34,016 nt of DNA from Desulfobacteraceae bacterium. GTDB lineage: Bacteria > Desulfobacterota > Desulfobacteria > Desulfobacterales > ETH-SRB1. Below the pieces are notes generated by a model that was given only the letters and a program-made list of their open reading frames with translations, ran no database searches and was not told where the DNA came from. The position numbers and the translations under genes were made by a program. The stretch is taken from contig JAPVVG010000263.1 in NCBI GenBank assembly GCA_028571455.1, positions 1-34,016 of the forward strand. The letters run 5' to 3'. Shown here piece after piece: positions 5,411-27,566 of the stretch. How positions within the stretch are numbered: position 1 is the stretch's first letter; every line of letters starts with the position of its first letter.

Positions 5411-5477
5411 TTTCTTTCGTCCTCTGACCTATGACTTCTGACCTCCGACTTCTGACATCTGTCCTCCACCTCCACCC
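5411..5477. repeat. TCTGACC-type repeat tract shared with 12400-12460
   Basis: This 67-bp tract begins TTTCTTTCGTCCTCTGACC and ends CTGTCCTCCACCTCCACCCA. It is nearly identical to 12400-12460 apart from one extra 7-nt unit. At 12400-12460 the same DNA is translated as the C-terminal tail of the bi-domain dehydrogenase; here it is not part of a recognised gene. Confidence 0.85.
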
Positions 5478-5932
5478 AAACAGTTCCCTCAGACGCATCA
5501 GCAGCGCCCGGAGCTAAAACCAGTCTCATCTTCGACGCACCTTTCTGGATTTCAGCTTCCGGTCTCATCAAATCTTCATCTTTGCTCATCGCTGCCCCCT
5601 TTTCAGACCGTTTCTTAACCCTTTGCGACTGCGGCTTTAACAATTTTAGTGTTCATTTGTGCCTGCCCCGTTCAATATTTTTTCTTTTTTATTTAACTGG
5701 AGTAATCTGCGGATCAAAATTGCTTTTCGTTAGTCTATATCTTGTCTGTATGAGTCAGTGGCTAATTTTATCTCTTTTGCGCCTTTTTGTTTACCCCGTA
5801 GGTCCGGAAGATCGTACTGGGGCGCCTTTGCGTGAGCCAGTCCTGTCTTTCTAATCTTCTAATCTTCTTCTTTCCGGCCTCCCGTCTCCAGTCTTTTCCG
5901 GCCTCCCGTCTCCCTTCTCCTGTCTCCTGCCC

Positions 5933-6493
5933 TCAATGCGTAACCCCTTCCCTCCTAACAACCTTTACAAACGTCATCCACAATATTTTCATATCAAAAA
6001 CAAACGATTTATTCTTCAGATAATACTCATCAAACTCCACCTTCACCGGAATCGACAATACATCCCTGCCGTTTACCTGCGCCCATCCGGTAATCCCCGG
6101 AATAAGTTTATGAATCCCCTTCCCTGTCCTAAGCCCAACCAGATCATCTTGGTTATACAAAGCCGGACGTGGCCCCACAAAACTAATGTCCCCCTTTAAA
6201 ATACTGTAAAGCTGCGGCCATTCATCCAGACTGAACTTGCGCAAAAAAGACCCAACCGGCGTAAGGTAAATATCAGGATCCTTCATAAGATGGGTTGCAA
6301 CAGCAGGGGTGTCAACACGCATCGTTCTAAATTTAGGCATCCTGAATATGCTGTTATCGATCCCCACCCTGTCCGACCAGTAGAGAACCGGTCCCAGGGA
6401 AGTTAACTTCACCAGCAATGCGATCACAAGCATTGGCGCACTCAAAACGAACATGGCAACAAAAGATATCAGTAAATCAAAAATTTGTTTCAT
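5933..6493 (-). CDS. PglC-like phosphoglycosyl transferase (initiating sugar transferase)
   Basis: This is a monotopic phosphoglycosyl transferase of the bacterial sugar transferase family. At 186 aa it matches the minimal PglC type, not the long WbaP/WcaJ type. It transfers a sugar-1-phosphate from a UDP-sugar to undecaprenyl phosphate at the inner face of the membrane and so starts repeat-unit assembly. One N-terminal re-entrant hydrophobic helix is visible (FDLLISFVAMFVLSAPMLVIA). It is followed by the conserved VGIDNSIFRMPKFRTM, LRKFSLDEWPQL and GDISFVGPRPAL segments with the Asp-Glu catalytic pair. The C-terminal GITGWAQVNGR motif is also family-typical. It overlaps the epimerase gene upstream by 17 nt, so it is the last intact gene of the main operon. 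Family call is firm; the sugar substrate is unknown but may be the product of its epimerase neighbour. Confidence 0.93.
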   Translation of the reverse strand: MKQIFDLLISFVAMFVLSAPMLVIALLVKLTSLGPVLYWSDRVGIDNSIFRMPKFRTMRVDTPAVATHLMKDPDIYLTPVGSFLRKFSLDEWPQLYSILKGDISFVGPRPALYNQDDLVGLRTGKGIHKLIPGITGWAQVNGRDVLSIPVKVEFDEYYLKNKSFVFDMKILWMTFVKVVRREGVTH

Positions 6494-7587: not shown

Positions 7588-8787
7588 TTAAATCTTATCT
7601 GCGTAAATCTGTGTAATCTGTGGATTCATAACCCCCATAAAATCTTGTGCCATTTGTCGCATTATAAAGGTGCTGGTGTTATGCCTGACAAATTCGCCTC
7701 TATCTTGCCCTTCACTACTCAACAATTTTAATTTACTCAAAAAATCTTCATGATCGCATGGTTTGAATACTGCAGCATTCTCAACATTCTCACTTATAAA
7801 TTTACCTGCAAACCCACTGACACCCGCGATTATCGGCTTGCCGGTAGCGGCATATTCAAAAATCTTCGAAGGCAGCACTTTCTCAAAAGCGGTACAATCG
7901 TTAAGATGCAAAAACAGATAATCACTCTGCCTATAGAATTTTATCAAATCTTCACGCCCCACCGGATCGTACAAAACAACATTGGTCACACCCTGCTTCT
8001 TAAGGTTATCCTCCAGTGCAGAGCGCATACCGCCATCACCTATAATCCAGAACTCATTTTCATGTTCCGTCATTTTGGCTATAAGCGGAATTATTTTTTC
8101 AAGCCCCTGTCCCTGACCGATATTTCCAGCATATGTAATAATCTTTCTATCAGTAGGCCTATCCTTCTCAAAAGAGACACCTGTAAACTCTTTATCGATA
8201 CCATTTGTAAAGAATGAAAATTCCTTTTCAGGAGCAATATTTTCAAAATATCCACGAAACCCTTCAGAAACAAGGTTCACCTTATCGGCTGTCGAGACAG
8301 TAAATCGTTCCACAAGAATAAATATCGGTAGAACCACCCAGGAAATTGGAGGAGAAAGAAGCGATTTCATTGTATCGGTAAAGATATCTCTTATATCAAG
8401 ATACAACCGCGCACCCTTCATTCTGGCAATCACAGCTCCTAAAAAAGCCGTAAAAAGGCGGGATGATGTTGCAAAAACCACATTATAATCTCTCCCCTTA
8501 GTATACTTTATTGTTTTAATAAAATACGTAAAAAATGCCCGACCCTGGTCGAAAAATCCACTTTTATGAGGAGGAAGCTGAATTCTAATAATATTTATAT
8601 TCCCATTCACCTCCACAGGATCTGCTTCCCTGCGGAATGTATTATATCTGTTGGGCATTGTCGTAATGACATCAACCGAATCATTATCTTTCAACAATGG
8701 CCGTAACGCATTTATAAACGCTGATGACCTGAACGAGCCTGCGCATAAATCCGGCTTGCAATAAAACGTCAAGATCAGGATCTTCAA
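7588..8787 (-). CDS. Glycosyltransferase family 4 (WbuB-like)
   Basis: This is a GT-B fold retaining glycosyltransferase, probably cytoplasmic or peripheral on the membrane, adding a sugar to the lipid-linked unit. The N-terminal domain opens KILILTFYCKPDLCAGSFRS, the usual opening of this WbuB-like clade. The C-terminal donor domain shows ITYAGNIGQGQGLEKIIPL, then FWIIGDGG and FLHLNDCTAFEKVLPSKIFEYAATGKPIIAG with the E-(x7)-E-type signature. It overlaps the wecB stop by 4 nt (ATGA), indicating coupling. The last dozen residues (MNPQITQIYADKI) and the stop codon come from an AATCTGCG-family repeat, so the native C-terminus has been replaced or extended. Donor and acceptor cannot be assigned. 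Confidence 0.88.
   Translation of the reverse strand: MKILILTFYCKPDLCAGSFRSSAFINALRPLLKDNDSVDVITTMPNRYNTFRREADPVEVNGNINIIRIQLPPHKSGFFDQGRAFFTYFIKTIKYTKGRDYNVVFATSSRLFTAFLGAVIARMKGARLYLDIRDIFTDTMKSLLSPPISWVVLPIFILVERFTVSTADKVNLVSEGFRGYFENIAPEKEFSFFTNGIDKEFTGVSFEKDRPTDRKIITYAGNIGQGQGLEKIIPLIAKMTEHENEFWIIGDGGMRSALEDNLKKQGVTNVVLYDPVGREDLIKFYRQSDYLFLHLNDCTAFEKVLPSKIFEYAATGKPIIAGVSGFAGKFISENVENAAVFKPCDHEDFLSKLKLLSSEGQDRGEFVRHNTSTFIMRQMAQDFMGVMNPQITQIYADKI
7597..7626. repeat. AATCTGCG-family repeat forming a gene's 3' end
   Basis: The repeat (ATCTGCGTAAATCTGTGTAA, then TCTGTGGATT) is read on the minus strand as NPQITQIYAD at the C-terminus of the GT4 protein. The stop codon follows a few bases further on. 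Confidence 0.88.
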
Positions 8788-9953
8788 GATGAACTCTCCT
8801 CAAGATATCTGAGTATATGACCAACTATACGCTCGCTCGCCTTTCCATCCCATAAGTCCGGTATCCGCCCGTTTTTCTTTTTACCATTTAGGACCTTATT
8901 AACCTCTAATCTCAATTTTCCCATATCGTTGCCTATCAGTATATTAGTTCCCACCTCCACTGTAACGGGCCGTTCTGTATTTTGCCGCAATGTCAGACAT
9001 GGCACACCCAATGCTGTCGTCTCCTCCTGCAATCCGCCGCTATCAGTTAACATGACGGCGCAATCCTTCCAGAGATAAAGAAAGTCATTATAGTTAAGAG
9101 GATCCATCATAACGATTCCGTTCGATACCGGGGCCAAAGCAGCCCCTTTTTCAATAAACAGATCCCCCAGTCCAAATTCTTCAATCCGACTACGGGTCCT
9201 TGGATGGCATGGAAATATGATCGGCACTCCCTTTGCTATTTCATTTACTGTTTCCATGAGTCTTGTCAGCACTCTGCTGTCATCAACATTTGATGGCCGG
9301 TGAAGGGTCATGCACAAATATTTCTCTGGCAAACATTCTTTTAATGAACGGACAGAGAGAGATACCGCATCCGCATCACCGATTTTACCCAATTGATAGA
9401 ATAGATTATCAATCATTACATGACCAACGAAACAGACAGAATCTTTGGCATGACCTTCCGCCAAAAGGTTCTGTGTGCCATCATCTTCAGTAGTAAAAAA
9501 GAGATCAGTTATAGCATCGGTTGCCAACCGGTTAATCTCTTCCGGCATTTGCCGATCCCTTGAACGTAAACCAGCCTCAACATGCGCCAATTTAATATGA
9601 AGTTTCTTTGCAACGAGCCCTGCTGCAATGGTTGAATTCACATCACCTACCACAACCACCATGTCTGGCATTTCCTTCAGACAGACCGCTTCAAACTTAA
9701 CCATAATATTGGCTGTCTGAACTGCATGACTATCAGAACCCACTCCCAGATAATAATCCGGTTTTGGTATTCCAAGCTCCTCAAAAAATGCCTGCGACAT
9801 TTCGTAATCATAATGCTGCCCAGTGTGAACCAATACATATGCCAGATTTTTCTTTGCTTCGAACTTTGAGCTTTGGGCTTTGAGCTCTCTAATTATAGGG
9901 GCAATCTTCATAAAATTCGGCCTGGCTCCAGCTACAAGAATGATCTTTTTCAC
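8784..9953 (-). CDS. wecB: UDP-GlcNAc 2-epimerase, non-hydrolysing (WecB type)
   Basis: It interconverts UDP-GlcNAc and UDP-ManNAc (or related 2-acetamido sugars) in the cytoplasm. Family motifs in order are LVAGARPNFMKIAPI, VLVHTGQHYDYEMS, VVVVGDVNSTIA, HVEAGLRS....PEEINR, then LTDSGGLQEETTALGVPCLTLR and TERPVTVEVGTN. I chose the GTG start because a GGAAGGA ribosome binding site lies about 9 nt upstream and family homology begins there. A TTG nine codons earlier is less likely. After ELKAQ there are about 8-10 extra residues (SSKFEAKKN). These are translated from a CTTTGAGCTTTGGGCTTTGA repeat, another small in-frame insertion. The gap to the heparinase-like gene is 19 nt. The order fits the non-hydrolysing family rather than NeuC, so it should not feed NeuB directly. 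Confidence 0.9.
   Translation of the reverse strand: MKKIILVAGARPNFMKIAPIIRELKAQSSKFEAKKNLAYVLVHTGQHYDYEMSQAFFEELGIPKPDYYLGVGSDSHAVQTANIMVKFEAVCLKEMPDMVVVVGDVNSTIAAGLVAKKLHIKLAHVEAGLRSRDRQMPEEINRLATDAITDLFFTTEDDGTQNLLAEGHAKDSVCFVGHVMIDNLFYQLGKIGDADAVSLSVRSLKECLPEKYLCMTLHRPSNVDDSRVLTRLMETVNEIAKGVPIIFPCHPRTRSRIEEFGLGDLFIEKGAALAPVSNGIVMMDPLNYNDFLYLWKDCAVMLTDSGGLQEETTALGVPCLTLRQNTERPVTVEVGTNILIGNDMGKLRLEVNKVLNGKKKNGRIPDLWDGKASERIVGHILRYLEESSS
9860..9888. repeat. CTTTGAG/CTTTGGG repeat inside wecB
   Basis: A triplicated 10-nt phrase (ACTTTGAG, CTTTGGG, CTTTGAGCTC) falls in the wecB coding region. It is translated as the extra AQSSKFEA segment in a loop between the first helix and the VLVHTGQH strand. 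Confidence 0.6.
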
Positions 9954-9972
9954 ATCAACACATCCTTCCAAA

Positions 9973-11619
9973 CTATACAAAAATCAATTTCGTGGAAATG
10001 TTCAAGGGCAGTTCTCCCACCACCTTGCCAAGCACAACTTGATTGGGAATGCTTATGCCGAATTCCGGGTGGTATGTGCTGTTCTGGAGAAAACCATCCA
10101 CTGTCTTATCCAGCGCCATCGTTGCGATTAACTTTTCACTGGCATCATAGATATGCCACTCGTCCACACCTGTTCTAACATGAAGAGATGGATGAAAATG
10201 GAAGAATATATACACACAATGGGTACCTGATCCCCCAACACTATCGGATATAACCAGTTCATCGTCAGAGAATCCCCAGGTTCGCTGATGAAGCCCGACT
10301 GATTTTAATCGTTCAAATCCATTATGAGCCGCACAGATCACATCTTTATCATGTAAGATTTCAATATTCCGAGTTACTATTTTTGCCCGTCCAGCGACTC
10401 GGAACCCACCCCAAACCTCAGAAGAATCCTGTCTGTCAACTGACAGGGTATTATGAGCTGGAGTTTTACGCTGTCGCAACCGCTCCTGACTGACACCATA
10501 ACAAGAGGTTCCACTGTTTACCAAAACACGCTGTCTCCCTTTTGATAGTTCGAAAGAAAGCGTATCAGCATGTGCATGCCCTGAGAGATAATCCGGACCT
10601 ATCGGGGCGGCATCAGCAATAAGATGCCAATCGTTCCGGCAAACAGAATAATAACCAGTCTCTGGCAGACGCCCAACACGGATATCATTCCTTTCGTCAG
10701 GCTTAATACCCAATCTACGCGCGTAATCCTGAATTTCATCAGGTCTGGCCGCTATGCCTGTTGCGGCATCGTTAAAAAAGGCAATCTCACCATCGGGATG
10801 AGTTTGTTTATTTAATGCAGACAGCATCTTCCTCGACTTATCGCGCCATACTTCCAAGATGTCTGAGTGCATCATGCCAGAATACACATTGGCAATATTA
10901 ATAAGATCCAGCAGGTCTTCCAGAATTATAGCGTGATACATAGGCGATCGCTCAAAGTGCCCACCATCTGCAAGAACCTGTTCAGAAACCTCCTTTGCTA
11001 ATATCTGCAATCCCTTATTCAACCATTTTTCTGCTTCCACGCCATTAAAAAAAAGCCCGACAAACACAAGGGCCTTGGCATTGGCAAACAGATGATTGCC
11101 CAGCAGATGAACTTCAGGTTTTTTAAACAGATACCGTGTCTGAACCGCCAGGCTGTGCAGGACCTCATCAGGCAGACCATTTCCAACCAGCGCCCATTTG
11201 ATCCAGTTAACAATACGCAAAGAGGTTGGATAAGGCTCCCAGCCATTGCCCATGCCCGGAGGATTTTCTTCAATCCACTTGCCAATCAGATCAAGATGCA
11301 GCTCCTTTTTATTTTCAGCATCACGCGCCTGCAAATCATCAAAATAGTGAAGATTATAAAGCCAAAGCTTCTCCCACCGGGGATTATTCCAGTCCTTTTT
11401 AGAAACAAGCTTATGCTCTTGATTTAGAAATCGAAAACGGTAAGGGGAAAGTAAAGAAGGATTTTTTTTGCAGGAGTTTACCCAATTACCTTTAATTGAC
11501 CTTGTTGCCGGCGCAGGAGAGATATCCGGCTTTGGTTTATACAGTTTAAACCATAACCTGCCATAAATCTGAACCGGCTTGAGATATTTGACAGTATGAA
11601 AGAGACGAGGTAAATTCAT
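9973..11619 (-). CDS. Heparinase II/III-like (alginate-lyase fold) protein
   Basis: This 548-aa protein has an N-terminal helical toroid and a C-terminal heparinase II/III beta domain. Such proteins are common inside polysaccharide operons, where they are thought to trim or edit the polymer as uronate-type lyases. Visible signatures are LWLYNLHYFDDL about residue 85, NHLFANAKAL about 175, GGHFERSPMYHAIILEDLLDL about 220 and HAHADTLSFEL about 350. The last is the core motif of the C-terminal domain. I see no signal peptide, so export is unclear. In comparable operons it directly follows the bi-domain dehydrogenase gene; here a vapBC pair lies between them. It is followed by wecB. The substrate is unknown. 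Confidence 0.88.
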   Translation of the reverse strand: MNLPRLFHTVKYLKPVQIYGRLWFKLYKPKPDISPAPATRSIKGNWVNSCKKNPSLLSPYRFRFLNQEHKLVSKKDWNNPRWEKLWLYNLHYFDDLQARDAENKKELHLDLIGKWIEENPPGMGNGWEPYPTSLRIVNWIKWALVGNGLPDEVLHSLAVQTRYLFKKPEVHLLGNHLFANAKALVFVGLFFNGVEAEKWLNKGLQILAKEVSEQVLADGGHFERSPMYHAIILEDLLDLINIANVYSGMMHSDILEVWRDKSRKMLSALNKQTHPDGEIAFFNDAATGIAARPDEIQDYARRLGIKPDERNDIRVGRLPETGYYSVCRNDWHLIADAAPIGPDYLSGHAHADTLSFELSKGRQRVLVNSGTSCYGVSQERLRQRKTPAHNTLSVDRQDSSEVWGGFRVAGRAKIVTRNIEILHDKDVICAAHNGFERLKSVGLHQRTWGFSDDELVISDSVGGSGTHCVYIFFHFHPSLHVRTGVDEWHIYDASEKLIATMALDKTVDGFLQNSTYHPEFGISIPNQVVLGKVVGELPLNISTKLIFV

Positions 11620-11656
11620 TTAGAATTAGCCGCTGCCACCCTAAGCGATCCGTACG

Positions 11657-12058
11657 TTATTCAACCCAGTTTTCCAGATGCAAACCAACAATTCTTTCAA
11701 ATTCTTTGGTATTGTTGGTCACCAATGTCATATCCCGTGATCTGGCCAAACCTGCTATAAGTAGATCATAAGGACCAATCGGCATTCCTTTCTTTTCAAG
11801 TTGTACGCGAATAGTTGCGGCTTCTATAGCAGAGGAACGATCCAGGTTAATAAGGTTCAATGGCAGAAGAAATTTGGCAAGGGCATTCTCGGAACGTTGC
11901 CGGTATTGGCTTTTTTCGACCCCATATTGAAGTTCGAACAGGGTGATTGTGGAGATTGCAACATCCTGTGGAGAATGTTGCCTGAATCGCTCAAGAACCT
12001 CCGATGGGTGTTTTTTAATGAGGTATATGCAAATATTGGTATCAAGCAGATAGCGCAT
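11657..12058 (-). CDS. vapC: VapC family PIN-domain toxin (second copy)
   Basis: This 133-aa PIN endoribonuclease is the toxin of a type II TA pair. Active-site acids are visible in YLLDTNICIYLI, LFELQYGVEKS, PYDLLIAGLARS and NTKEFERI. Its ATG overlaps the VapB stop by one base (TAATG), so expression is coupled. The pair lies inside the polysaccharide operon in the same orientation, between genes that normally adjoin. Its own promoter could therefore also feed the heparinase-like gene and everything downstream. It is only distantly similar to the VapC at 4400-4810. Confidence 0.9.
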   Translation of the reverse strand: MRYLLDTNICIYLIKKHPSEVLERFRQHSPQDVAISTITLFELQYGVEKSQYRQRSENALAKFLLPLNLINLDRSSAIEAATIRVQLEKKGMPIGPYDLLIAGLARSRDMTLVTNNTKEFERIVGLHLENWVE

Positions 12059-12288
12059 TAAAAAGGTTCTCTCTTCTGCATGTCAGGCTGATTACGTCCG
12101 TCTTTCATAAAGTCTTCCGGAAATTCACTGAGAGATTCGAACAACAAGTCCCATGTCGTTTCTATGGGCTCCAGTATAACCTGGTTGCCTTTTTTGAATA
12201 TTTTTACCTCATTACCAAGAATTCTGAATGATTTGGGCAGTCTTACTGCTTGAGAACTGCCATTCTGAAATAATTTTGCTGTTTCCAT
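12058..12288 (-). CDS. vapB: VapB family AbrB-type antitoxin (second copy)
   Basis: This 76-aa antitoxin has an AbrB-type N-terminal DNA-binding domain (AKLFQNGSSQAVRLPKSFR, GNEVKIFKKGNQVILEP) and a variable acidic tail that contacts VapC. The chosen ATG has an AGGGG ribosome binding site about 7-8 nt upstream; a longer frame of 20 more codons lacks support. A -35/-10 pair overlapping a TATATA inverted repeat lies 32-60 nt upstream, suggesting autoregulation. The first 45 residues closely resemble the VapB at 4822-5052, so the two modules are paralogous. Confidence 0.88.
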   Translation of the reverse strand: METAKLFQNGSSQAVRLPKSFRILGNEVKIFKKGNQVILEPIETTWDLLFESLSEFPEDFMKDGRNQPDMQKREPF

Positions 12289-12308
12289 TTTATTACCCCT
12301 CCTTGTCA

Positions 12309-12348
12309 TATATATTTTTAATATATACACCAATAACCTAAAAATCAA
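12309..12348 (-). promoter_or_regulatory. Promoter and palindrome upstream of the second vapBC
   Basis: On the minus strand TTGATT (12343-12348) and TATATT (12320-12325) are 17 nt apart. The -10 falls within TATATA-7 nt-TATATA (12309-12327), a likely VapB operator. The AT-rich composition makes chance palindromes possible. Confidence 0.45.
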
Positions 12349-12358
12349 TTTATTTTAT

Positions 12359-12385
12359 CAGCGTTCATCTGCGTTTATCTGCGGC
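12359..12385. repeat. AATCTGCG-family repeat at the dehydrogenase 3' end
   Basis: A degenerate copy (ATCTGCGTTTATCTGCGG) supplies the final residues AADKRR and the TGA stop of the bi-domain dehydrogenase. Confidence 0.7.
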
Positions 12386-14605
12386 CAATTTATCTTTTTT
12401 TTCTTTCGTCCTCTGACTTCTGACCTCCGACTTCTGACATCTGTCCTCCACCTCCACCCAGCGCCCTTCTCTCAACGACTCAATAGCACCAAAGCTCGCC
12501 CTTGTCGTATTTATAATTTCCTCAAAGGGAATCAATGCTTGTCCGCCATTTTTTATCCGCTCAATCAGCAACCTGAACTGCTCGGAATGCCCTTTATCCT
12601 GCTTTTTCTTCAAACGGGAAAAGCCCTTAAAACCAAACCCTGTTAATGTTCGCCAGTTGTCCATAACAAGGGAACGTCCCTGGGAATGAACCTCAATGCG
12701 TTCCTTGGAGTAGGCTTTATTGCCGTTGGCAAAATAATTAATCACAGCGTTGGAGCCGTTCTCATAGCGCAACAGAATACTTGCATTGTCAGTATTCTCC
12801 TCGGGAGATGTTCCCATTGCATTCATGCAAACAGAAATGACCCTGCTTCCGGTCAGGTAAGAACAAAGATCAATAAAATGGCACGCCTCACCAACAATGC
12901 GACCGCCGCCAACATCAATATCATGCACCCAGGAATTGGCAGAAATTTCTCCGGCATTCATAGTGGCTACAATATTTACTGCACCCATGCCAATAAGAGT
13001 CTTCATTTTCCGGGCAAATGGAGCAAAACGGCGATTAAAACCAACGGTCAGCACCGGGCCATCAGGCTGAGCGGAAACACGTTTATAAACCTCATCAATC
13101 CGGAGTAGTTCCTCCTGATTTAAGCAAAGGGGTTTTTCCACAAAAACGCTCTTACCCGCCTCCAGGGATTCAATAACCATGGAGGCATGCAAATCATGCT
13201 TTGTGGTGATAATCATCAGATCGACTTCATCATCTTTAAGAACCTGCCGGTAATCAGTTGCGGCAAAGGCAAACCCTGCACGCCTGGCTAAATTGCCGGC
13301 AGACAGTCCCCCGGCAGAAACAATGTATTTAAGCTGGGCGTCAAGGGGTTTCAGGGCTGGAAGAAGCGTAGCGCTGGTAAAATTGCCGGCGCCGACAATA
13401 CCTATAACCCCTTTTCCTTTAGTGAAAGATCGCTTTGTTACTGTTATCACCGAACTTGTATCAACATTGTCTTCATAGACTAACAAAGATGCAATGGAGG
13501 AAGAACCGCTCATGTTTTTATAAATGCGGCTATACTCTGCCAGAGGAACCCGCTCTGTAATCAACGATTCCACGTCAAGTTGCCCACTCTCTATTGCAGA
13601 GAGTATTGCTTCAAAATTGCGTTTTTCTGTCCAGCGGACAAAGGCAATTGGATAGTCCTGCCCTTTTTGTTCATAATTATCATCATAACGTCCAGGACCA
13701 TAAGAACACGACACCTGAAAGCTTAATTCCTTCTCGTAAAATTCTGCACGAGAAATATCAAGGCCCACAACTCCAATCAGGACAATACGCCCCCGTTTGC
13801 GACTCATGCGTGCAGACTGGGAGATAATTTCATTGCCTTTAGCTGATGCGGTAATCAGCACAGCATCCGCGCCAGTCCCGCCAGTCTGTTCCTCCACAAA
13901 CCTGACCTGATCTGTCCCCCCTGCCGGATTAACTGCAATAATGCCAAGCTTGCCTGCAATATTCACCTTTGTCTGGTCATAATCAAAACCAATAACCCGG
14001 CAGCCATTGGCCCTGAGAATCTGCACTGTAATGAGACCTATCAACCCAAGACCAATAACAACAACCGTTTCTCCAAAGACCGGGTTAAGAAGACGAACCC
14101 CTTGCAGCCCGACAGCCCCGATCGTTGTAAAAGCTGCTGCATCATCGCTGACACTTGCTGGAATTTTGGCGCACAGGTTTTTGGGCACGCATACTATTTC
14201 GGCATGGGGGCCATTACTAACCACCCGATCCCCAACTCTCAGACTACTGACCCCTGACCTCTGTCTTTTCCCGACCTCTGATCTCTGACCTCCGATCTCT
14301 GTCACTTTCCCTACGTTGCAATATCCGAGAGGCAAAGGCTGACCTAATTTGTTCCGCACCGCATTAATCGTGGGCATCAGCCCATCCGACCGCACCTTAT
14401 CCAGAACCTGTTTGACCTTCTCCGGCTGTTGACGGGCCTTTTGTATCAAATTTGCATGGCCAAACTCCACAAGCATCCGTTCAGTGCCAAGAGAAACAAG
14501 AGAGCGTGAAGTTTGAATCTGAATCTGTCCTGCCTTTACTTGTGGAGCAGGAACTTCCTCCAAGGCTGTTTCACCTGTTTTTAAGTTTTGTATGATCTGT
14601 CTCAT
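12365..14605 (-). CDS. Bi-domain sugar dehydrogenase (MDR + Gfo/Idh/MocA)
   Basis: This 746-aa two-enzyme fusion is found in polysaccharide loci. Residues ~1-375 are a zinc-type medium-chain dehydrogenase (KAGQIQIQTSRSLVSLGTER, PLPLGYCNVG, GDRVVSNGPHAE, then the Rossmann VIGLGLIGL). Residues ~390-715 are a Gfo/Idh/MocA oxidoreductase (GIVGAGNFTSATLLPALK, the EKPLCLN catalytic segment and EACHFIDL). It probably oxidises a nucleotide or lipid-linked sugar; the substrate is unknown. Three separate places carry repeat-derived sequence. One is a degenerate duplicate of the start just upstream. The second is an extra segment around residues 101-120 (GQRSEVGKRQRSGVSS). The third is the C-terminal tail CQKSEVRSQRTKEKKDK...AADKRR. 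Removing the internal and C-terminal pieces restores a normal family sequence. It is the first gene of the downstream module. Confidence 0.88.
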   Translation of the reverse strand: MRQIIQNLKTGETALEEVPAPQVKAGQIQIQTSRSLVSLGTERMLVEFGHANLIQKARQQPEKVKQVLDKVRSDGLMPTINAVRNKLGQPLPLGYCNVGKVTEIGGQRSEVGKRQRSGVSSLRVGDRVVSNGPHAEIVCVPKNLCAKIPASVSDDAAAFTTIGAVGLQGVRLLNPVFGETVVVIGLGLIGLITVQILRANGCRVIGFDYDQTKVNIAGKLGIIAVNPAGGTDQVRFVEEQTGGTGADAVLITASAKGNEIISQSARMSRKRGRIVLIGVVGLDISRAEFYEKELSFQVSCSYGPGRYDDNYEQKGQDYPIAFVRWTEKRNFEAILSAIESGQLDVESLITERVPLAEYSRIYKNMSGSSSIASLLVYEDNVDTSSVITVTKRSFTKGKGVIGIVGAGNFTSATLLPALKPLDAQLKYIVSAGGLSAGNLARRAGFAFAATDYRQVLKDDEVDLMIITTKHDLHASMVIESLEAGKSVFVEKPLCLNQEELLRIDEVYKRVSAQPDGPVLTVGFNRRFAPFARKMKTLIGMGAVNIVATMNAGEISANSWVHDIDVGGGRIVGEACHFIDLCSYLTGSRVISVCMNAMGTSPEENTDNASILLRYENGSNAVINYFANGNKAYSKERIEVHSQGRSLVMDNWRTLTGFGFKGFSRLKKKQDKGHSEQFRLLIERIKNGGQALIPFEEIINTTRASFGAIESLREGRWVEVEDRCQKSEVRSQRTKEKKDKLAADKRR
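12400..12460. repeat. TCTGACC-type repeat coding for a C-terminal tail
   Basis: This tract is nearly identical to 5411-5477. It is translated as WVEVEDRCQKSEVRSQR at the C-terminus of the bi-domain dehydrogenase. Confidence 0.88.
14245..14302. repeat. 7-nt TCTGACC repeat inside the dehydrogenase gene
   Basis: About 58 bp of imperfect TGACCTC/TGATCTC units are read in the gene as the extra segment GQRSEVGKRQRSGVSS. It interrupts the usual run from the NVGKV strand to GDRVVSNG. Confidence 0.85.
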
Positions 14606-14614
14606 TATATTAAG

Positions 14615-14677
14615 TCATTTCTGCGTAATCTGCGTAATCTGTGGATCGGTTTTAAGGTTTTGAATTATTTGCTTCAT
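14615..14677 (-). pseudogene. Fossil start of a second bi-domain dehydrogenase gene
   Basis: This 20-codon frame begins on the base right after the HisF-like stop (TAA-ATG). Its first ten residues, MKQIIQNLKT, are the same as the first ten of the dehydrogenase (MRQIIQNLKT) except K/R. It then runs into an AATCTGCG-family repeat (DPQITQITQK) and stops. Eight of 30 bases differ from the intact start, mostly at synonymous positions. This looks like the remnant of a diverged homologous gene, not a fresh duplication. Its position immediately after hisF is where the ancestral gene would have started. Confidence 0.7.
14620..14647. repeat. AATCTGCG-family repeat at a module junction
   Basis: This copy (CTGCGTAATCTGCGTAATCT then GTGGATC) lies between the fossil and the intact start of the bi-domain dehydrogenase gene. 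Confidence 0.88.
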
Positions 14678-15529
14678 TTATTCACATACATTTGCGACAA
14701 TCTGCGCCTGCCCCGTAGCTTCGGGAAATGGTATTGCGGTAGCTCCTGCAAAGGTTTTATAACTCTCTCTTATTATCGCATCTTTTTCAGCACGGCTCGG
14801 GTAGTTGATTAATACGGCTCTATAAATGCCTTTGAATACGAACAAACTGCCCGCTGCTGCGCCAATAATCCCGAAAGCATTGATCAATGCTGCGATGTCC
14901 TTAAGTGACCCAGCGCCGCCAAGCACTGTGATTGGCAAGTTGATGGCTTCTCGGATTTTATTTACCAGATCAAGATCATATCCCTTCATGGCCCCATCAC
15001 GATCGATGGAATTAATTACAATTTCTCCCGCGCCAAGATTTTCCATTTGTTTTGCGAATTCAACAGGATTTCGACCAGTCGGTGTACCCGCATTGTGGGT
15101 CCATAATTCATGTTTGCCACCACGTTTCGCCTTTTTCACATCCATGATGACGACGATACTCTGATTCCCAACAACCTCTGCCGCCCGCAGCACAAGCTCT
15201 GGGTCACTAATAGCGACTGAACTCATGGCTACCTTCTCTGCTCCCAGACTGATAATTCTCTCCACCTGATCCACAGTCTTTACGCCACCGCCATAGCAAA
15301 GCGGCATCCGACATTCGGCAGCCAAATTCTTGATCATACCGTAATCTGGCTCTCTGTTCTGCACAGCGGCATCGATGTTCAGCACGATCAACTCATCGAC
15401 TTCCTTTTCGTTAAATATCTTTACCGCATTAATTGGGTCGCCCACATACTTCGGCTTGCCAAAGTTTACGGTTTTCACCAACCCACCGTTTTTAACCAGC
15501 AGACAGGGAATGATTCTTGGGCGTAACAT
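14678..15529 (-). CDS. hisF: HisF-like WbuZ protein (amidino-sugar synthesis)
   Basis: This TIM-barrel protein is of the HisF family (283 aa from MLRPRIIPCLLV). Visible features are the N-terminal IIPCLLVKNGGLVKTVNF strand, VDELIVLNIDA and YGGGVKTVDQVERIISLGAEKVA, then INSIDRDGAMKGYD and VLGGAGS. The HisF-typical catalytic aspartates sit where expected at the two barrel halves. Next to a HisH-like glutaminase and a WbpG/PseA-type amidotransferase, it fits the WbuZ group, proposed to channel ammonia to sugar amidination rather than make histidine. No other his gene is nearby. The start is set by the family N-terminus; it begins 2 nt after the HisH-like stop. The trailing ~20 residues are less conserved. 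Confidence 0.88.
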   Translation of the reverse strand: MLRPRIIPCLLVKNGGLVKTVNFGKPKYVGDPINAVKIFNEKEVDELIVLNIDAAVQNREPDYGMIKNLAAECRMPLCYGGGVKTVDQVERIISLGAEKVAMSSVAISDPELVLRAAEVVGNQSIVVIMDVKKAKRGGKHELWTHNAGTPTGRNPVEFAKQMENLGAGEIVINSIDRDGAMKGYDLDLVNKIREAINLPITVLGGAGSLKDIAALINAFGIIGAAAGSLFVFKGIYRAVLINYPSRAEKDAIIRESYKTFAGATAIPFPEATGQAQIVANVCE

Positions 15530-15531
15530 AT

Positions 15532-16146
15532 TTATAACTCCGCAAAATTTTTCAGAAGTTGAACGCCCCATTGATGACTTTTCTCAGGATGAAACTGCAC
15601 GCCAAAGACATTTCCCGAACACACACTTGAGGCATGGTGGCCGTTATAGTCTGTGATCGCAAGCACATGGTCTTGGTCATTCGGAAGGAAGTAATAAGAG
15701 TGTAAAAAATAAAAGCGCGCTCCCGTACCTAAATTTTCGAACAAACCTTCGGCGTGGCGTGGCGTCACATCGTTCCAACCCATGTGGGGAAGGTGTGTTT
15801 TCTGATCAAAGGAGGCAGTGTCAAATTTCTTGACCTCTGCATCAATCCACCCCAGTCCGTCCAATAACCCCTCATCACTTCTCTTAGCCATCATTTGCAT
15901 ACCCACGCAAATTCCTAAAACAGGTGTGTTTTTGTTGACTACCAATTCATCGAGCGTATCCCTCATGCCTGATTCGTTTAAGCGTCTCATCGCCCAGTCA
16001 AAGGCACCCACTCCAGGGAGGATGATCTTATCCGCGGCAAGCAGTTCTTCTGGCGAGGAAGCGATTTCAGCCGCGATATTCAACCGTTTGTAGATATTCG
16101 CAAAGGCGTGGATATTACCCAAACCATAGTTCACAATGGCAATCAT
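15532..16146 (-). CDS. hisH: HisH-like glutaminase WbuY (amidino-sugar synthesis)
   Basis: This 204-aa class I glutamine amidotransferase releases ammonia from glutamine. The catalytic triad is complete: nucleophile C80 in LGICVGMQ, and H186 and E188 in QFHPEKSH. The N-terminus IAIVNYGLGNIHAFANIYKRL and the ILPGVGAFDWAMRRL segment are HisH-typical. It overlaps the amidotransferase gene upstream by 4 nt (ATGA) and is followed 2 nt later by the HisF-like gene. In characterised systems the HisH/HisF pair supports but is not strictly required by WbpG/PseA enzymes. I read it as a dedicated sugar-locus paralogue. Confidence 0.9.
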   Translation of the reverse strand: MIAIVNYGLGNIHAFANIYKRLNIAAEIASSPEELLAADKIILPGVGAFDWAMRRLNESGMRDTLDELVVNKNTPVLGICVGMQMMAKRSDEGLLDGLGWIDAEVKKFDTASFDQKTHLPHMGWNDVTPRHAEGLFENLGTGARFYFLHSYYFLPNDQDHVLAITDYNGHHASSVCSGNVFGVQFHPEKSHQWGVQLLKNFAEL

Positions 16147-17288
16147 CGTTTGCCGCCCAGTTCCAAGCCGAATAACTTCATCAGCTTTGCACCCACCATG
16201 TAAATATTTTGCTGGGACTTGTAATCCTTGTATGACTTGTGGGGACTGTCCATATAGACCTGCAATTCCTCTACAGAAATTCCGAGTTTTGTCGCTACAT
16301 ACTCAAACTCTTGCTTTATGCTATCTTCATCATAAGGAGAGTGCGATAACTTTTCCAGAGCCTCTTCTCTCGACATCTGATCCGTCAGTATCAGACTCGA
16401 GTATTGGACTTTCCTCGTGTCATATCCAAATTTCTTAAACAGCCAGTAGCCCTCGTAAAACTTTGTAAATCTTGATTCAAAATGTTTTTGGGGGTAGGTT
16501 TGCCAACCGAATTTTTCAGCAAGTAACTGCATGGCTTCTGCTTTCCGATAGGAAATGTAATTGAGTGGGGTGATGACTTTTATCCCCTTGATATAACGGA
16601 GATAAACTTTATGGCGCAGGATAGTTGTTAAAGGGAAGGTGACCAACGGCCTGGTTCCAAACTGTTTATGGATATCTTTAATCTGAATTGAATCGGATTG
16701 ATAATACATCCATTCAATTGGATTTCTAATACACTCCGTGGAATAGTTTGCGCCAGTCAAAATGTATCTGACCTTATGTCGTTCCGCAAACTTATACATC
16801 ATTGCAAAGAACGCATGATCTTGCGGTGTATCAATGTGCGGGACACCGGACTTGAAGAAAGCCAACTGAAGATCCCGCATTTCCTCCCAATCAATAACTT
16901 CTGTGTATAAATCCAAGTCTAATTTATCGACCAACACCTCAATATTATTGACTGCCTCCTGTGAATCCCATCCCGCATCTACATGAAATACCAAAGGCCG
17001 TAGCCCCAGTTTCTCCTTTGCAATGTAGGTCAAGTAAGAACTGTCTATGCCCCCACTCATTCCCATAATACAATCAAAATCCTTCTCTTCCCCCTCCTTT
17101 TCAATCTTCTTTACTATCTTTTGAAGCGATTCCCATCCTTTCTCATCAGTATGCCAGTTTGGGAGAATATTTTTATAAAACCGATTGCAATGGTCACAGA
17201 CCCCTTTATCGTCAAAAGTGATCTTAGTGTCAGTGGTGTCCATAACGCAATTTGTGCAGATTTGGTAAGTTCGTTGATTCATTTTCAT
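16143..17288 (-). CDS. wbuX: N-acetyl sugar amidotransferase (WbpG/WbuX/PseA family)
   Basis: This ATP-dependent PP-loop enzyme converts an N-acetyl group on a sugar into an acetamidino group. Two CxxC pairs near the N-terminus (C11/C14, C31/C34) form the zinc-binding element. The PP-loop MSGGIDSS is at about residues 77-84, followed by PLVFHVDAGWDS and LTGANYSTE, all as in WbpG/PseA. Length (381 aa) is normal. An AGGAG site 5 nt before the ATG supports the start. In Pseudomonas the WbpG substrate is a diacetamido mannuronic acid, and in Campylobacter PseA acts on pseudaminic acid. The window has no di-N-acetyl mannuronate genes, so the nonulosonic acid made by the upstream genes is the more attractive substrate here (inference). 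Confidence 0.9.
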   Translation of the reverse strand: MKMNQRTYQICTNCVMDTTDTKITFDDKGVCDHCNRFYKNILPNWHTDEKGWESLQKIVKKIEKEGEEKDFDCIMGMSGGIDSSYLTYIAKEKLGLRPLVFHVDAGWDSQEAVNNIEVLVDKLDLDLYTEVIDWEEMRDLQLAFFKSGVPHIDTPQDHAFFAMMYKFAERHKVRYILTGANYSTECIRNPIEWMYYQSDSIQIKDIHKQFGTRPLVTFPLTTILRHKVYLRYIKGIKVITPLNYISYRKAEAMQLLAEKFGWQTYPQKHFESRFTKFYEGYWLFKKFGYDTRKVQYSSLILTDQMSREEALEKLSHSPYDEDSIKQEFEYVATKLGISVEELQVYMDSPHKSYKDYKSQQNIYMVGAKLMKLFGLELGGKR

Positions 17289-17295
17289 GAAACTC

Positions 17296-18174
17296 CTATG
17301 CCGATTGTAAAGAACACAATTTAGCTCGTATCAATATCGAACGATATCGTGATGTATAGGGGATTGCCAATGTTACTTTCCGACCAATAAATTTCTTGAT
17401 GATGCTCTTTGCGAAGTTAATAATCCCATCCTTACGCATCCTTCTTATCTCCACAATCGAAAAACCCGCTTCAGACAAATATCCTGTGAGGTGGTGCTCA
17501 CCGGCAAAAACAAGATGATCGGGCAAGTCCAATTCGGTGGGCACTTCATGACTATCGCCAAGGTCGCCAATATTGCCTGTTTCGAGATAGAATTCACCAT
17601 TGTCCGCCAAGACGTTTTTTATCTCCCCTAAGAATACGCGAAAGTCCGGGATATGGGAATAGACATGCACCAGGGACACAAAATCGAATTTTTCTGTTAC
17701 ATCATGCAGATACTTCTCACTAATTTTGAGCCCACGTGCCCTCGCCCGAGTCGCTTTTGGTTTCATCGGCTCGATACCTTCAATTCGGCTACCCAAGTGT
17801 GCTAACGCAGACACCGCCTCAACGATCTCACCATAACCGGCGCCCACGTCCAACCAAGATATTTCTCGAGGATTTGACCAGACATCGTTGAACATCAAAG
17901 CGAGTATCTTCTTGTAGCGGATCACATTGCTTCTTACACGACGGACAACGGCAGTCCTCCCATGCTCTACATTGCTGTGAATGCCGGTTTCAACGCCCTC
18001 ACGAATCAAGGATTGTATGGGGCGCGGGTTCACATAAACGAGTCCACACACTGAACATTTTACTGCCGTAAACCCATTCTCTTTCGCCCAAGGTGAACTT
18101 TTTGATTCGTCACAGAACGGGCAATTAATGGTCTCAGTGTTAGTCTCGGCATTCATTGCGGTAGTTTTTCTCAT
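17296..18174 (-). CDS. Class I SAM methyltransferase with N-terminal zinc ribbon
   Basis: This 292-aa protein has an N-terminal zinc ribbon (C18, C21, C40, C43 in CPFC and CSVCGLVYVNPRP) and a methyltransferase domain with the SAM motif WLDVGAGYGEIVEAV near residue 110. An acidic motif follows (RIEGIEP). The family acts on sugars or secondary metabolites; in this locus O- or C-methylation of a glycan residue is likely. The start overlaps the upstream GT stop by 4 nt (ATGA), and 7 nt separate it from wbuX. The last 70 residues are basic and could lie on the membrane, but no clear helix is seen. The target is unknown. Confidence 0.85.
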   Translation of the reverse strand: MRKTTAMNAETNTETINCPFCDESKSSPWAKENGFTAVKCSVCGLVYVNPRPIQSLIREGVETGIHSNVEHGRTAVVRRVRSNVIRYKKILALMFNDVWSNPREISWLDVGAGYGEIVEAVSALAHLGSRIEGIEPMKPKATRARARGLKISEKYLHDVTEKFDFVSLVHVYSHIPDFRVFLGEIKNVLADNGEFYLETGNIGDLGDSHEVPTELDLPDHLVFAGEHHLTGYLSEAGFSIVEIRRMRKDGIINFAKSIIKKFIGRKVTLAIPYTSRYRSILIRAKLCSLQSA

Positions 18175-19346
18175 TTTTGCTGATTCTTGAAATGCCCGCG
18201 GTCTCTTGCAATGGCTTCCAGTGCCTTTTTTAGTTCTTCAGTTTCCGTGGTATAAGCGTAAACGCTACGCGGCAACATTGACATATTTTTCTGCCAAGTT
18301 TCCAAGTGTTCCGGCTTAATACTACAAAGGGTATCCACCACTTTTTCAACGTCTTCATCCTCAATAATCAAACCAATATTATAGCGTTCAACATCCCTGG
18401 CATCTCCACTTCTTGCCAGACTTATGATTGGCGTCTGAAAAGAACAACTTTCATAAAATCGATTAGTTCTAGCCCAGCGCCAGTTCCAGTCTCCGGGGGC
18501 GGGGAATGGATAGCACCCCCATACCAAGTCCACTCTACCATACAAACCGGGCAAATCATCTGGGGAATGGAACTCCCCGAGAAACTTGACATTACTTAAC
18601 TTCTGAGAGCGCTCACTGATATCAACCGGCTTCATTGGATAGCCCGCCACCACAATTTCAATGTCTTGAGGGCACGCCATCGCAAGTGCTTCCAGTACTT
18701 GCCACGACCAGTCACAGCGCAAAAGACCAAAGTAGCCAATGCGCAGGGGCCTATCAACCAGCGGTCTGCCATTCAAAGACTCTGCAATCTCATGTGAAAT
18801 CGCCGTCTCTCCAAGAGATGATTCCAGCTTGTTTTCAATAACCATTGCCGGAACCGATGCTTTCAGCCATTTGCGGTAATAGGTATCAATAAAGCCCGGT
18901 GCCGTTGCTACCAATAAAGAACACGCGTTGACAAAATGTTTATCAATTATTCGAATCAAGCGACCTTTTAGACTTGGGGCAACTTGTATCTCACGGATAT
19001 CACCTATTTCGACAACAACTGGTTTGCCTAACCCAAAGCCGGCAAGAAGCGCCATAAAAGCCATATCTTCGCCTGAGGCATAGACAATATCATTACGCCG
19101 CATGGCACGCCGCATTTTTGGGAGGACAGTAGCCATCTTCACAAGTCGTTGCATATAGTGCCCGTGCGGTATTTCACCTAAACTGTCAACGGGGCAATCG
19201 GGCATCCGCCCGCTATGGTAATCCCGTTCAAAAGCCACAGCTTCGACTGCGAAACCCGCTTGCTTGAGCATGGCGATACGCTTGGAATCTCTCGGGTGCC
19301 CGAGCACCGGCAGAACACTGAGCACTCGTAGATTATCAAGATTCAT
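18171..19346 (-). CDS. Glycosyltransferase, GT4-like (GT-B fold)
   Basis: This 391-aa predicted glycosyltransferase has two Rossmann-like halves. The N-terminal half shows LRVLSVLPVLGHPRDSKRIAML, VYASGEDMAFMALLAGFGLGKPVVVEIGD and CSLLVATAPGFID. The C-terminal half shows LRIGYFGLLRCDWSWQVLEAL, NVKFLGEFHSPDDLPGLYGRVDLVWGCYP and FYESCSFQTPIISL, equivalent to the donor-binding Glu segment of GT4. It is likely cytoplasmic and adds one residue of the repeat unit. It is coupled to the methyltransferase gene by an ATGA overlap. Family membership is by overall pattern, so the exact class is less certain than for its neighbours. Confidence 0.8.
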   Translation of the reverse strand: MNLDNLRVLSVLPVLGHPRDSKRIAMLKQAGFAVEAVAFERDYHSGRMPDCPVDSLGEIPHGHYMQRLVKMATVLPKMRRAMRRNDIVYASGEDMAFMALLAGFGLGKPVVVEIGDIREIQVAPSLKGRLIRIIDKHFVNACSLLVATAPGFIDTYYRKWLKASVPAMVIENKLESSLGETAISHEIAESLNGRPLVDRPLRIGYFGLLRCDWSWQVLEALAMACPQDIEIVVAGYPMKPVDISERSQKLSNVKFLGEFHSPDDLPGLYGRVDLVWGCYPFPAPGDWNWRWARTNRFYESCSFQTPIISLARSGDARDVERYNIGLIIEDEDVEKVVDTLCSIKPEHLETWQKNMSMLPRSVYAYTTETEELKKALEAIARDRGHFKNQQK

Positions 19347-19379
19347 ACTTTCTATTTTTCTTAACCCTGCTTGCCATAG

Positions 19380-20183
19380 TTATTTACGAATTTTTGCTCG
19401 CCAGCCCCGCCAAATACGTATGCAGTGGCAAAAAAGATGATCATACAACAACTTTTTAGCTAAATTCCAAATGGCGTATTTAATGTTGATATAGCATTTC
19501 TTTTTTTTAGAAAAAAACTCATCACGTATTTCTTGACGCCATACCTCACTCTTTTTCAATAAAACTGGGTCAGTTGATAAACCATTGCCCTTGTATATTA
19601 CGCCAAACCGTGGAATTCTTTTATAGTGAGCATGTTCCCTAAGAACAAGTTTGAGAAGCATCCGGTAATCCGCTCCGAGCTTGTGGTCTAACTCATATCC
19701 TCCATTTTTCAATTGCATCTCACGGGAAACAAACCATGCTTGATGGCAGAGCATTTGAGTGTATAGAAAATAAGGGGAAAGATGATCTGGCGAGTACAGA
19801 TATTTTGCACGGGAATGAAGATTGACAATATCAGTATAGAAAAAATCAACCAGGGGATTTGCTTCCATAAATGAAACAACATCTTTAAGTACATTAGCAT
19901 CGTAGAAAACATCACCGGCGTTAAGAAAGCATATAAATTTACCTCGGCTACATGCAAGTGCCTGGTTCATAGCGTCAAAAATTCCGTTATCCTTTTCGCG
20001 TATAACGCGTATCCGCTTGTCACAAGGCAACCGTTCGATAGATCCGTCGTCCGACAAACCATCTTTTATTATGTACTCAAAACCGCACCACGATTGCCCA
20101 AGAACCGAGTCCACAGTACGGGCAAGATCATTTCCAGCATTAAGGCAAACGGTTATAATACTGATCAAATTTCTTTGGTTCAT
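19380..20183 (-). CDS. Glycosyltransferase family 2
   Basis: This 267-aa GT-A fold enzyme has the GT2 opening LISIITVCLNAGNDLARTVDSVLGQS. It also has EYIIKDGLSDDGS with the first Asp motif, DNGIFDAMNQAL and the FLNAGDVFYD DXD-equivalent. HQAWFVSRE and GADYRMLLKL segments are typical of the WcaA/WcaE-like sub-branch. The C-terminus is strongly basic (KKKKC, RIWRGWRAKIRK), fitting membrane association. It overlaps the polymerase gene by 44 nt, implying coupled translation. Sugar specificity is unknown. Confidence 0.9.
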   Translation of the reverse strand: MNQRNLISIITVCLNAGNDLARTVDSVLGQSWCGFEYIIKDGLSDDGSIERLPCDKRIRVIREKDNGIFDAMNQALACSRGKFICFLNAGDVFYDANVLKDVVSFMEANPLVDFFYTDIVNLHSRAKYLYSPDHLSPYFLYTQMLCHQAWFVSREMQLKNGGYELDHKLGADYRMLLKLVLREHAHYKRIPRFGVIYKGNGLSTDPVLLKKSEVWRQEIRDEFFSKKKKCYINIKYAIWNLAKKLLYDHLFCHCIRIWRGWRAKIRK

Positions 20184-21537
20184 GGTATCTCAACACAGAA
20201 AGACTTATAGCCAACATTAAAAAACAAAAAGCTCTCGGATAATAGCGAAAGATCCCCCAACTAAAATACCCTGCTACTATAATAAATATCCCCAATCCGA
20301 ACAGGAAAGCCATAAATGATCTTTTAATTGGATTCCCATTAATAGCTCTTCTGCTTTTATAGCAATGGTATATTATTAATAAAAAAAAGCTGACGACAAA
20401 AAAGACACCTATCAACCCACTTTCGCTAAACTCCAAAAGGAATACATTGTGAACTGGAAATCCTCTCATTCTTTCCGTCAAGTATAGACCTGATTTGTTG
20501 TTTTGATATTCTAAATAATTGTTTTGTCCTACGCCAACTAATGTATTGGCAGGATCTTCCCGAATTATATTAATTGCATTTTTATTTAATTCATTTCGTA
20601 ATGTATGCGCTGCCGAGGTTTTTAAAATAAAATCCTGCTTGAAAATTAATAATCTTTCATAGTTACAAGCCAGGAAAATTAGTGGTATCACAATCAAAAT
20701 GGCGATAATTTTTATTTTCTGTCTTCCTTTATATATAAATAGCCATATAAAAAGCAAAGATATCGATGCAGATCCAATGAAAGCACGGCTTTGAGTGAGT
20801 AGTAAAGTAGTGGCTGATAAAACAATAACGATAAAAGCAATTCTCCTTATTTTATAGAATCTTGGTAATGTTAGAAGTGAAAAACCAAGAATGCTAATAG
20901 TTCCCATCATTACGGCCAACCGTCCCGGTCCCATACTCCCTAATGCTCGATACGCACCAAACCGATAAAACGAGCCGGAAAGAAGGCTGTAATCTACAGT
21001 GTCATAGCCTAAAATATAGTCAAAGTTTATGAGCTGTCCCGTAGTAACCTGTAGAATCGAAAAAACAAATTGAATGACCACAATTCCAAGTACGCCGTAA
21101 ATAACATAATTGATATTATTGTAAACAAATCTGCTATTTCTTAAAAAATAGAAAAAAACAATTAGGATCTTTAACAAAGTGAAGATTTCAGCAATAACAA
21201 GCCTACTGTTCCCGGCCCAAAACAGGGAAAGAAGCGAGAACAGAAAGTAACCAATTAAGAAAAGAAATTCATTTGTTCGGAGCACACTGGATCTTCCTAC
21301 GAGAGAGCCGCGGGTGATAATCCCCGAAATAACCAACATGATAAAAGTGAAATCAATAAAAGCCAATCGCAGATCGGCAGTAGACTTGCCTTGGTAACCC
21401 TCAAAAAAGGTGTAAAAACCCCAATCCAGCGGAATCGAAAATGACAAGATATACATAGCCAGCATCCAGCGCCGGCTTTTGATAAAACAGGCGAAAAAAG
21501 CGAGCATCACGACCGAAATCAATAGTTGCTGACTCAT
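20140..21537 (-). CDS. O-antigen polymerase/ligase family (Wzy-like) membrane protein
   Basis: This 465-aa polytopic membrane protein has about 11-12 hydrophobic helices and a large periplasmic loop before the last group. The loop's end shows the Wzy_C/WaaL signature FPVHNVFLLEFSESGLIGVFF, and an upstream arginine-rich QSRAFIGS segment is also family-typical. With a Wzx flippase in the same operon, polymerisation of lipid-linked repeat units is the likelier role, though ligases share the fold. A GGAA site 6 nt before the ATG supports the start. No chain-length regulator (Wzz) is seen in the window. Confidence 0.85.
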   Translation of the reverse strand: MSQQLLISVVMLAFFACFIKSRRWMLAMYILSFSIPLDWGFYTFFEGYQGKSTADLRLAFIDFTFIMLVISGIITRGSLVGRSSVLRTNEFLFLIGYFLFSLLSLFWAGNSRLVIAEIFTLLKILIVFFYFLRNSRFVYNNINYVIYGVLGIVVIQFVFSILQVTTGQLINFDYILGYDTVDYSLLSGSFYRFGAYRALGSMGPGRLAVMMGTISILGFSLLTLPRFYKIRRIAFIVIVLSATTLLLTQSRAFIGSASISLLFIWLFIYKGRQKIKIIAILIVIPLIFLACNYERLLIFKQDFILKTSAAHTLRNELNKNAINIIREDPANTLVGVGQNNYLEYQNNKSGLYLTERMRGFPVHNVFLLEFSESGLIGVFFVVSFFLLIIYHCYKSRRAINGNPIKRSFMAFLFGLGIFIIVAGYFSWGIFRYYPRAFCFLMLAISLSVLRYHEPKKFDQYYNRLP

Positions 21538-21588
21538 ATTTTTCCGATACCAAAGCTGAGATTCATGTTGCTGACTGCTGGCATGCCC

Positions 21589-22797: not shown

Positions 22798-22848
22798 AGG
22801 GAGCCTTTTGGATTATTGATATCAGAACACATCTTAGAAGGGTAGCAA

Positions 22849-27538: not shown

Positions 27539-27566
27539 TGAAAAAACCCCTCAATAAAGCACAGCA

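Follow-up and report, generated by a model that had tools for sequence, protein, structure and literature searches.

The contig JAPVVG010000263.1 of a Desulfobacteraceae bacterium (GenBank assembly GCA_028571455.1; its 34,016 nucleotides are hereafter termed the window) raises the question of why a gene for a two-domain dehydrogenase is preceded by a second, truncated copy of its own start. On the minus strand, genes encoding a HisH-like amidotransferase and a HisF-like protein (hisF, 14678-15571(-)) are followed by a short frame, termed here the stub, and by the intact dehydrogenase gene, and hisF, the stub and the dehydrogenase lie in one common reading frame. The stub ATG abuts the hisF stop (...GTA TGT GAA TAA) with zero gap, as the first-pass annotation of this DNA had pointed out, and the complete stub frame (14677-14615(-), read as ATG AAG CAA ATA ATT CAA AAC CTT AAA ACC GAT CCA CAG ATT ACG CAG ATT ACG CAG AAA TGA) comprises 20 codons that specify MKQIIQNLKT and DPQITQITQK before the stop (MKQIIQNLKTDPQITQITQK). 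Nine bases (14614-14606), not the 10 nt given in that annotation, separate the stub TGA from the dehydrogenase ATG at 14605, and the two ATGs are 72 bp apart on the same strand. We propose that the stub is very probably a recombination scar at the edge of an exchanged polysaccharide block, and that its first ten codons (14648-14677(-)) would be the fossil start of a dehydrogenase gene from a diverged homologue.

The duplication of the dehydrogenase start is real: MKQIIQNLKT of the stub and MRQIIQNLKT of the gene agree at 9 of 10 residues and at 22 of 30 nucleotides, and five of the six differing codons are synonymous while the sixth is a K/R exchange, which bears out the earlier description of the differences as mostly synonymous. 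A scan of 67,972 window positions on both strands with MRQIIQNLKT returned one 10/10 match (the gene) and one 9/10 match (the stub), with all others at 5/10 or below, which rules out a chance match. Among 200,000 simulated runs with eight random substitutions spread over the 27 non-ATG bases, 0.01% ended with no more than one amino-acid change; both starts were thus most likely coding for protein during their divergence. Furthermore, among 98 dehydrogenase starts from the fetched loci (89 of them distinct) the stub reaches identities of up to 27/30, and at least 23/30 with 58 of the 98 rows and 53 of the 89 distinct starts, but only 22/30 with its neighbour; a tandem copy of recent origin is thereby rejected. 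The simplest explanation is that the two starts are homologues which diverged as coding sequences and were brought side by side only later.

The second half of the stub consists of a AATCTGCG repeat read in frame, which agrees with the first-pass annotation; this dispersed repeat (GATCCACAGATTACGCAGATTACGCAGAAATGA, 14615-14647(-)), of the CCACAGATTACGCAGATTACGCAG type, interrupts the stub exactly at the joint. The pattern TAATCTGCGTAATCTGYGGA has 24 matches, some overlapping, at up to three mismatches in the 2.9-Mb genome of the same organism, five of them on this contig, compared with 0 for a reversed-pattern control. A 146-nt query spanning the junction has a match in 52 of 58 genomes at E<=1, and among the matches listed in relatives most fall within the repeat. 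The adjacent sequence behaves differently: AAATGACTTAATA follows the repeat in only one of 12 distinct repeat contexts in the fetched loci, the window's own copy, the expression used for this count missing two slightly different copies in contig C168 of a same-genus relative (genome G002) and in a genome of another family (G064). Therein the leader segment that lies past the common repeat (AAATGACTTAATATA, 14606-14620(-)) occurs as AAATGACTTAATACAT or ...GCAT. From its context, AAATGACTTAATA does not look like a part of the common dispersed repeat. Query positions 73-144, which cover the repeat, AAATGACTTAATA, the ATG and the first codons of the intact gene, align with G002 contig C168 over 72 nt at 84% identity (E=1e-14), where the matching leader stands before another dehydrogenase start, so the sequence truncating the stub corresponds to a dehydrogenase leader. 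Among 389 genomes of the order, GCAGATTAYGCAGAAATGACTTAATA is matched at up to three mismatches in three (the window's own, G002 and G064), always ahead of dehydrogenase-type first codons, of which only five are present in G064; there the leader and these five codons are followed by a GxxExxY gene. A longer leader pattern that includes the ATG is matched in three of 389 class genomes, without mismatches in G064 and G002 and with three in G127; the window's own genome has no match because its leader lacks the CAT before the ATG. The G127 match was taken as chance, its frame closing after 13 codons (MREIILYCLQVQD and a stop) and being otherwise not dehydrogenase-like. Since the leader is found before other dehydrogenase-type starts, it most likely belongs to the intact gene, which would place the joint between stub codon 10 and the leader.

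A dehydrogenase gene located directly after hisF is an established arrangement in other bacteria; the first-pass annotation had proposed to look for it in related genomes. In 77 loci of relatives that contain a dehydrogenase start with at least 200 nt upstream of it, hisF lies directly upstream in eight, at spacings from a 17-nt overlap to a 98-nt gap, counted from the point where the HisF alignment stops. Each of these eight dehydrogenase genes has an uninterrupted frame (704-708 aa), and a heparinase gene follows downstream in six. Within the taxonomic order to which the window belongs, genome G306 has an amidotransferase, then HisH and HisF, and next to them a dehydrogenase homologue (50% identity, partly seen); it is the only one of 17 other HisF loci with such a neighbour. 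The stub is thus best read as the remnant of one such dehydrogenase. A second start upstream of the dehydrogenase was found in one of the 77 other loci, that of G002, and likewise at a module change; a duplicated start widespread among relatives at unchanged modules, which would have spoken against the replacement of a gene, was therefore not seen.

Comparison with G002, for which contig C171 was examined from position 8,000 onwards, shows what changes at this point. On both flanks the window is collinear with this single contig, in identical gene order and orientation. The first conserved block (7588-14605(-)) contains the dehydrogenase, a heparinase II/III-like gene and two further genes with 75-83% protein identity to G002, and the second (29534-33433(-)) extends from a LegC-like aminotransferase to a NeuB-type synthase with 82-91% identity. 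The central block between them (14678-29508(-)) has no close counterpart in G002: no match above 35% identity was found there at E<=1e-10 for 14678-26717, and 26711-29508 has merely 36-52% analogues. Similarly, no HisF match at 1e-60 was detected in 16 same-genus and same-family relatives. Because G002 is collinear on both sides but not in between, the stub marks the left edge of a swapped block. The earlier view that two operon halves were joined at 14.6 kb is right as to the module boundary, which is better described as one edge of a central block that was exchanged while the flanks on either side were conserved. G002 contig C171 contains a second such edge, where a truncated dehydrogenase (229 codons) stands ahead of a full-length, diverged one.

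The dehydrogenase itself is mosaic in its 5' part. Aligned with its counterparts in G002, in G037 (a genome of another family) and in the Desulfobacterales genome G11, it has 60-76% nucleotide identity over the first 100 alignment columns, 64-68% over columns 200-300 and mixed values of 52-91% up to column 600, beyond which identities are mostly 73-96%, apart from lower values towards the 3' end and in columns 1600-1800, where G002 has a repeat-derived insert. This profile fits repeated exchange at the 5' end of the gene, although it is blurred by the inserts. A CCTCTGA-type heptamer repeat within the gene (14249-14299) is read in frame as GGQRSEVGKRQRSG; the full-length G002 gene and G11 carry no insert at this site, and a like insert is present in the G002 fragment and in G037. 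The full-length gene of G002 (L123:6632-8869) has a different in-frame repeat-like insert (KIKLAADGRRWTQIEKDASRKGAKARRREE...), located in the second domain.

Starts of this dehydrogenase recur at further places. A degenerate pattern for its first nine codons was searched in 20 genomes and, at zero mismatches, gave four matches in the window's own genome (the gene, the stub, C141:4112 and C141:10215) and four in G002 (the gene, the C171 fragment of 229 codons, and stubs on C168 and C23), with none in the other 18 of the 20. Each of the two genomes thus holds three start fragments, which in G002 span 10-229 codons, and one full-length gene. At one to two mismatches several genomes have further matches, and the reversed control also yields single ones. 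By comparison, an internal stretch (IQKARQQPD/E) is matched at zero mismatches once in the own genome and twice in G002, where the second match is the 229-codon fragment. A search of the own genome with the full-length protein recovered the gene, C141:4112 and two lesser matches; residues 706-737 match at 5413-5508 (56%) within a CCTCTGA repeat and a repeat-coded C-terminus, and on contig C184 there is a generic one-domain match at 33%. The three G002 copies run into a gene of AlbA_2/HATPase_c_4 type (in Pfam, AlbA_2 scores below its cut-off, 20.5 vs 25.3, and HATPase_c_4 above), the ATG of which overlaps the end of the dehydrogenase-derived sequence (GTATGAGTC); at C23 the AlbA-type gene is present only in pieces. 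A 91% identical AlbA gene in genome G007 is preceded by a similar short piece, as judged by an out-of-frame peptide match.

Taken together, the diverged duplicate start, the leader homology, the differing block with its edges, the hisF-dehydrogenase order elsewhere and the further start fragments suggest the following course of events. In the original arrangement a dehydrogenase gene would have stood behind hisF, with the stub as its beginning; recombination would have removed everything beyond its codon 10 and fused the remainder to the upstream leader, made up of the dispersed repeat and AAATGACTTAATA, that belonged to a diverged homologue. This homologue would now supply the dehydrogenase function, and the joint would form the left edge of a central polysaccharide block exchanged between flanks common with the same-genus relative. 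The short repeat as the joining site, the direction of exchange and the stub's lack of function are parts that we infer. Accordingly, the first-pass proposal that the original gene was replaced by a diverged homologue through recombination at or next to the repeat is supported as regards replacement, and an active role of the repeat is a presumption.

Several observations weigh against this interpretation. The eight hisF-dehydrogenase loci all come from Bacteroidota, another phylum than that of the window, and the best other HisF in the order has at most 72% identity; no relative was found that combines the window's hisF block with a full-length version of the stub's gene. The duplicated start has only 30 bases, too few for a tree, and the repeat sits at so many genomic places that its position at the joint could be a coincidence. 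The dehydrogenase mosaic is patchy, its first 600 columns being mixed and disturbed by repeat-coded inserts. A difference in base composition between the two sides, which the first-pass annotation had proposed to look for, was not found, with no step in guanine-plus-cytosine (GC) content or in GC at third codon positions at 14.6 kb (GC 0.466 for hisF and 0.474 for the dehydrogenase). At the right edge (~29.5 kb), no comparable scar is visible by eye in 240 bases.

Among the alternatives, a cassette footprint ranks first, followed by a coupler frame and a chimeric contig. According to the first, which we regard as a minor possibility, an AlbA/HATPase- or GxxExxY-type gene once lay between the stub and the dehydrogenase and was later deleted between repeats. 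The arrangement on G002 contig C171 (dehydrogenase fragment, AlbA/HATPase gene, full-length dehydrogenase), the stubs before an AlbA-type gene on C23 and C168, and the repeat leader with five dehydrogenase-type codons before the GxxExxY gene in G064 speak in its favour; however, neither such a gene nor a piece of one is present between the stub and the dehydrogenase here, and a search of the own genome with the G002 AlbA/HATPase protein was negative at E<=1e-30. Moreover, insertion alone cannot account for two alleles as diverged as the stub and the intact gene, so that an exchange would be needed anyway. It is improbable that the 20-codon frame is a working leader that couples hisF translation to that of the dehydrogenase. 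The tight spacing (TAA ATG with no gap, 9 nt to the next ATG) and the single reading frame are consistent with coupling, as are the lack of an obvious Shine-Dalgarno sequence, by eye, ahead of the stub ATG or the dehydrogenase ATG and the passage of dehydrogenase-derived sequence into the next gene's ATG in three G002 copies. A conserved leader peptide is nevertheless rejected: across the 77 loci the frame is not conserved, the single further upstream start (in G002) opens a frame of 232 codons and is no short leader, and the second half of the stub is a dispersed repeat rather than a conserved peptide. Highly improbable is an assembly artefact, in which a chimeric contig would have been joined at the repeat. 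The joint does coincide with a repeat of ~27-33 nt that has copies elsewhere in the genome, which is a draft of 267 contigs, but a single G002 contig matches the two flanks in gene order and orientation, the hisF-dehydrogenase-heparinase order occurs elsewhere, and more start fragments are found in another contig and in another genome. Finally, it is barely credible that the gene duplicated its own start in tandem not long ago and that the copy then mutated. The shared peptide and strand, with ATGs 72 bp apart, would fit this, but eight differences in 30 bases with one amino-acid change are expected in 0.01% of the random runs, and the starts of many other species resemble the stub more closely than its neighbour does.

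A scar of block exchange is the best-supported reading of the stub. The recurrence of start fragments from one gene is its new and less expected part, based on two genomes and G064. Should the dehydrogenase start region with its repeat-type leader be a recurrent capture site, at which starts are cut off and placed before other genes, which we consider doubtful, then AlbA/HATPase genes, GxxExxY genes and the replacing dehydrogenase would be the captured genes, and the starts might persist by driving or coupling downstream translation. Only the excess of starts over the internal part of the gene would not readily be expected from ordinary block exchange. More generally, the locus provides base-level evidence on the reshuffling of surface-polysaccharide clusters in uncultured Desulfobacterales-type bacteria, with block edges that coincide with, or fall inside, the 5' end of a single conserved dehydrogenase gene, beside short dispersed repeats and leaving start fragments. 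In draft genomes, such fragments could help to recognize where blocks end and which cluster types were present earlier.

The genes around the joint fall into recognizable families. The sugar dehydrogenase (12365-14605(-), 746 aa) combines zinc-ADH and Gfo/Idh/MocA domains. HisF belongs to the AglZ/HisF2 family of acetamidino modification proteins (NCBIfam NF038364, 373.6 bits, cut-off 310) and scores slightly under the cut-off of WbuZ TIGR03572 (289 vs 299.7); the neighbouring HisH-like amidotransferase (TIGR01855, 223.8, cut-off 105.4) and WbuX-type N-acetyl sugar amidotransferase (TIGR03573, 325.1, cut-off 203.2) complete its block (15532-17288(-)). No Rfam element was detected at gathering score in 12000-16500. 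A PIN toxin/antitoxin-like pair (11657-12348) between the dehydrogenase and the heparinase gene is 90-93% identical in G037 and was not found at that place in G002.

The C-terminal tail of HisF (~residues 273-297; 14678-14755(-)) is unaligned with other HisF proteins and is partly a second dispersed repeat, GGGCAGGCGCAGAT (14698-14720). Of 15 distinct contexts of GGGCAGGCGCAGAT in the fetched loci, a sample enriched for dehydrogenase loci, four lie just upstream of dehydrogenase starts, namely those of G002 contig C23, G037, G064 and the window stub. A further repeat, GGGCAGGCGCAGATT..CGCAG, is located upstream of the G064 GxxExxY gene and directly ahead of starts resembling GxxExxY by eye (MKDERTYKII and MKDQRTYKI) in the loci L012 (own genome, G000:C141, 10.5 kb) and L246 (G006:C67). 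A tandem repeat GTGTAATGGGGGACGTTGTTACATTA occupies 33692-33794, and similar GGGGACGT strings follow both C141 stubs, which are located on a contig rich in toxin-antitoxin-type genes. L012 also holds a transketolase-domain fragment and a 28-residue piece that matches, at 96% identity, the C-terminal end of the window open reading frame 5933-6493, by eye a sugar transferase, and looks like the remains of another polysaccharide locus. An integron-like reading of C141, made by eye from its rows of toxin-antitoxin genes and repeats, was dropped; in an attC site, the inverted GTTAAAT/ATTTAAC pair would have to be oriented the other way. Among open-licence PMC papers, strings of the 9-mer repeat had no match, and searches for repeat-mediated cluster exchange or for GxxExxY with polysaccharide returned nothing relevant.

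The type of event proposed here is already known. According to PMC3715488, the O-antigen cluster of Salmonella group D2 is a D1 x E recombinant with an H-repeat remnant at the junction, and wzy gene remnants are left in such clusters. Our locus would resemble it in having recombination-joined polysaccharide blocks, a repeat at the junction and gene remnants; however, the scar here is a gene start beside a short dispersed repeat, rather than an H-repeat and wzy remnants as in that description, and several places hold start fragments of one gene. PMC3715488 also places O-antigen exchange junctions within genes at the cluster edge, the rml genes. A mosaic edge gene with a divergent 5' and a more similar 3' part is common to both cases, whereas a separate truncated start is additionally kept in tandem here. 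For repeats, the closest parallel is provided by Beggiatoaceae, for which PMC4679880 reports abundant short intergenic direct repeats such as TAACTGA heptamers. Short-unit direct repeats are likewise scattered between genes in our case, but the units are the 9-mer CGCAGATTA and the 7-mer CCTCTGA, and some of them lie inside coding frames. The shuffling of gene clusters ordinarily leaves scars such as the stub, but here they recur at the start of one gene.

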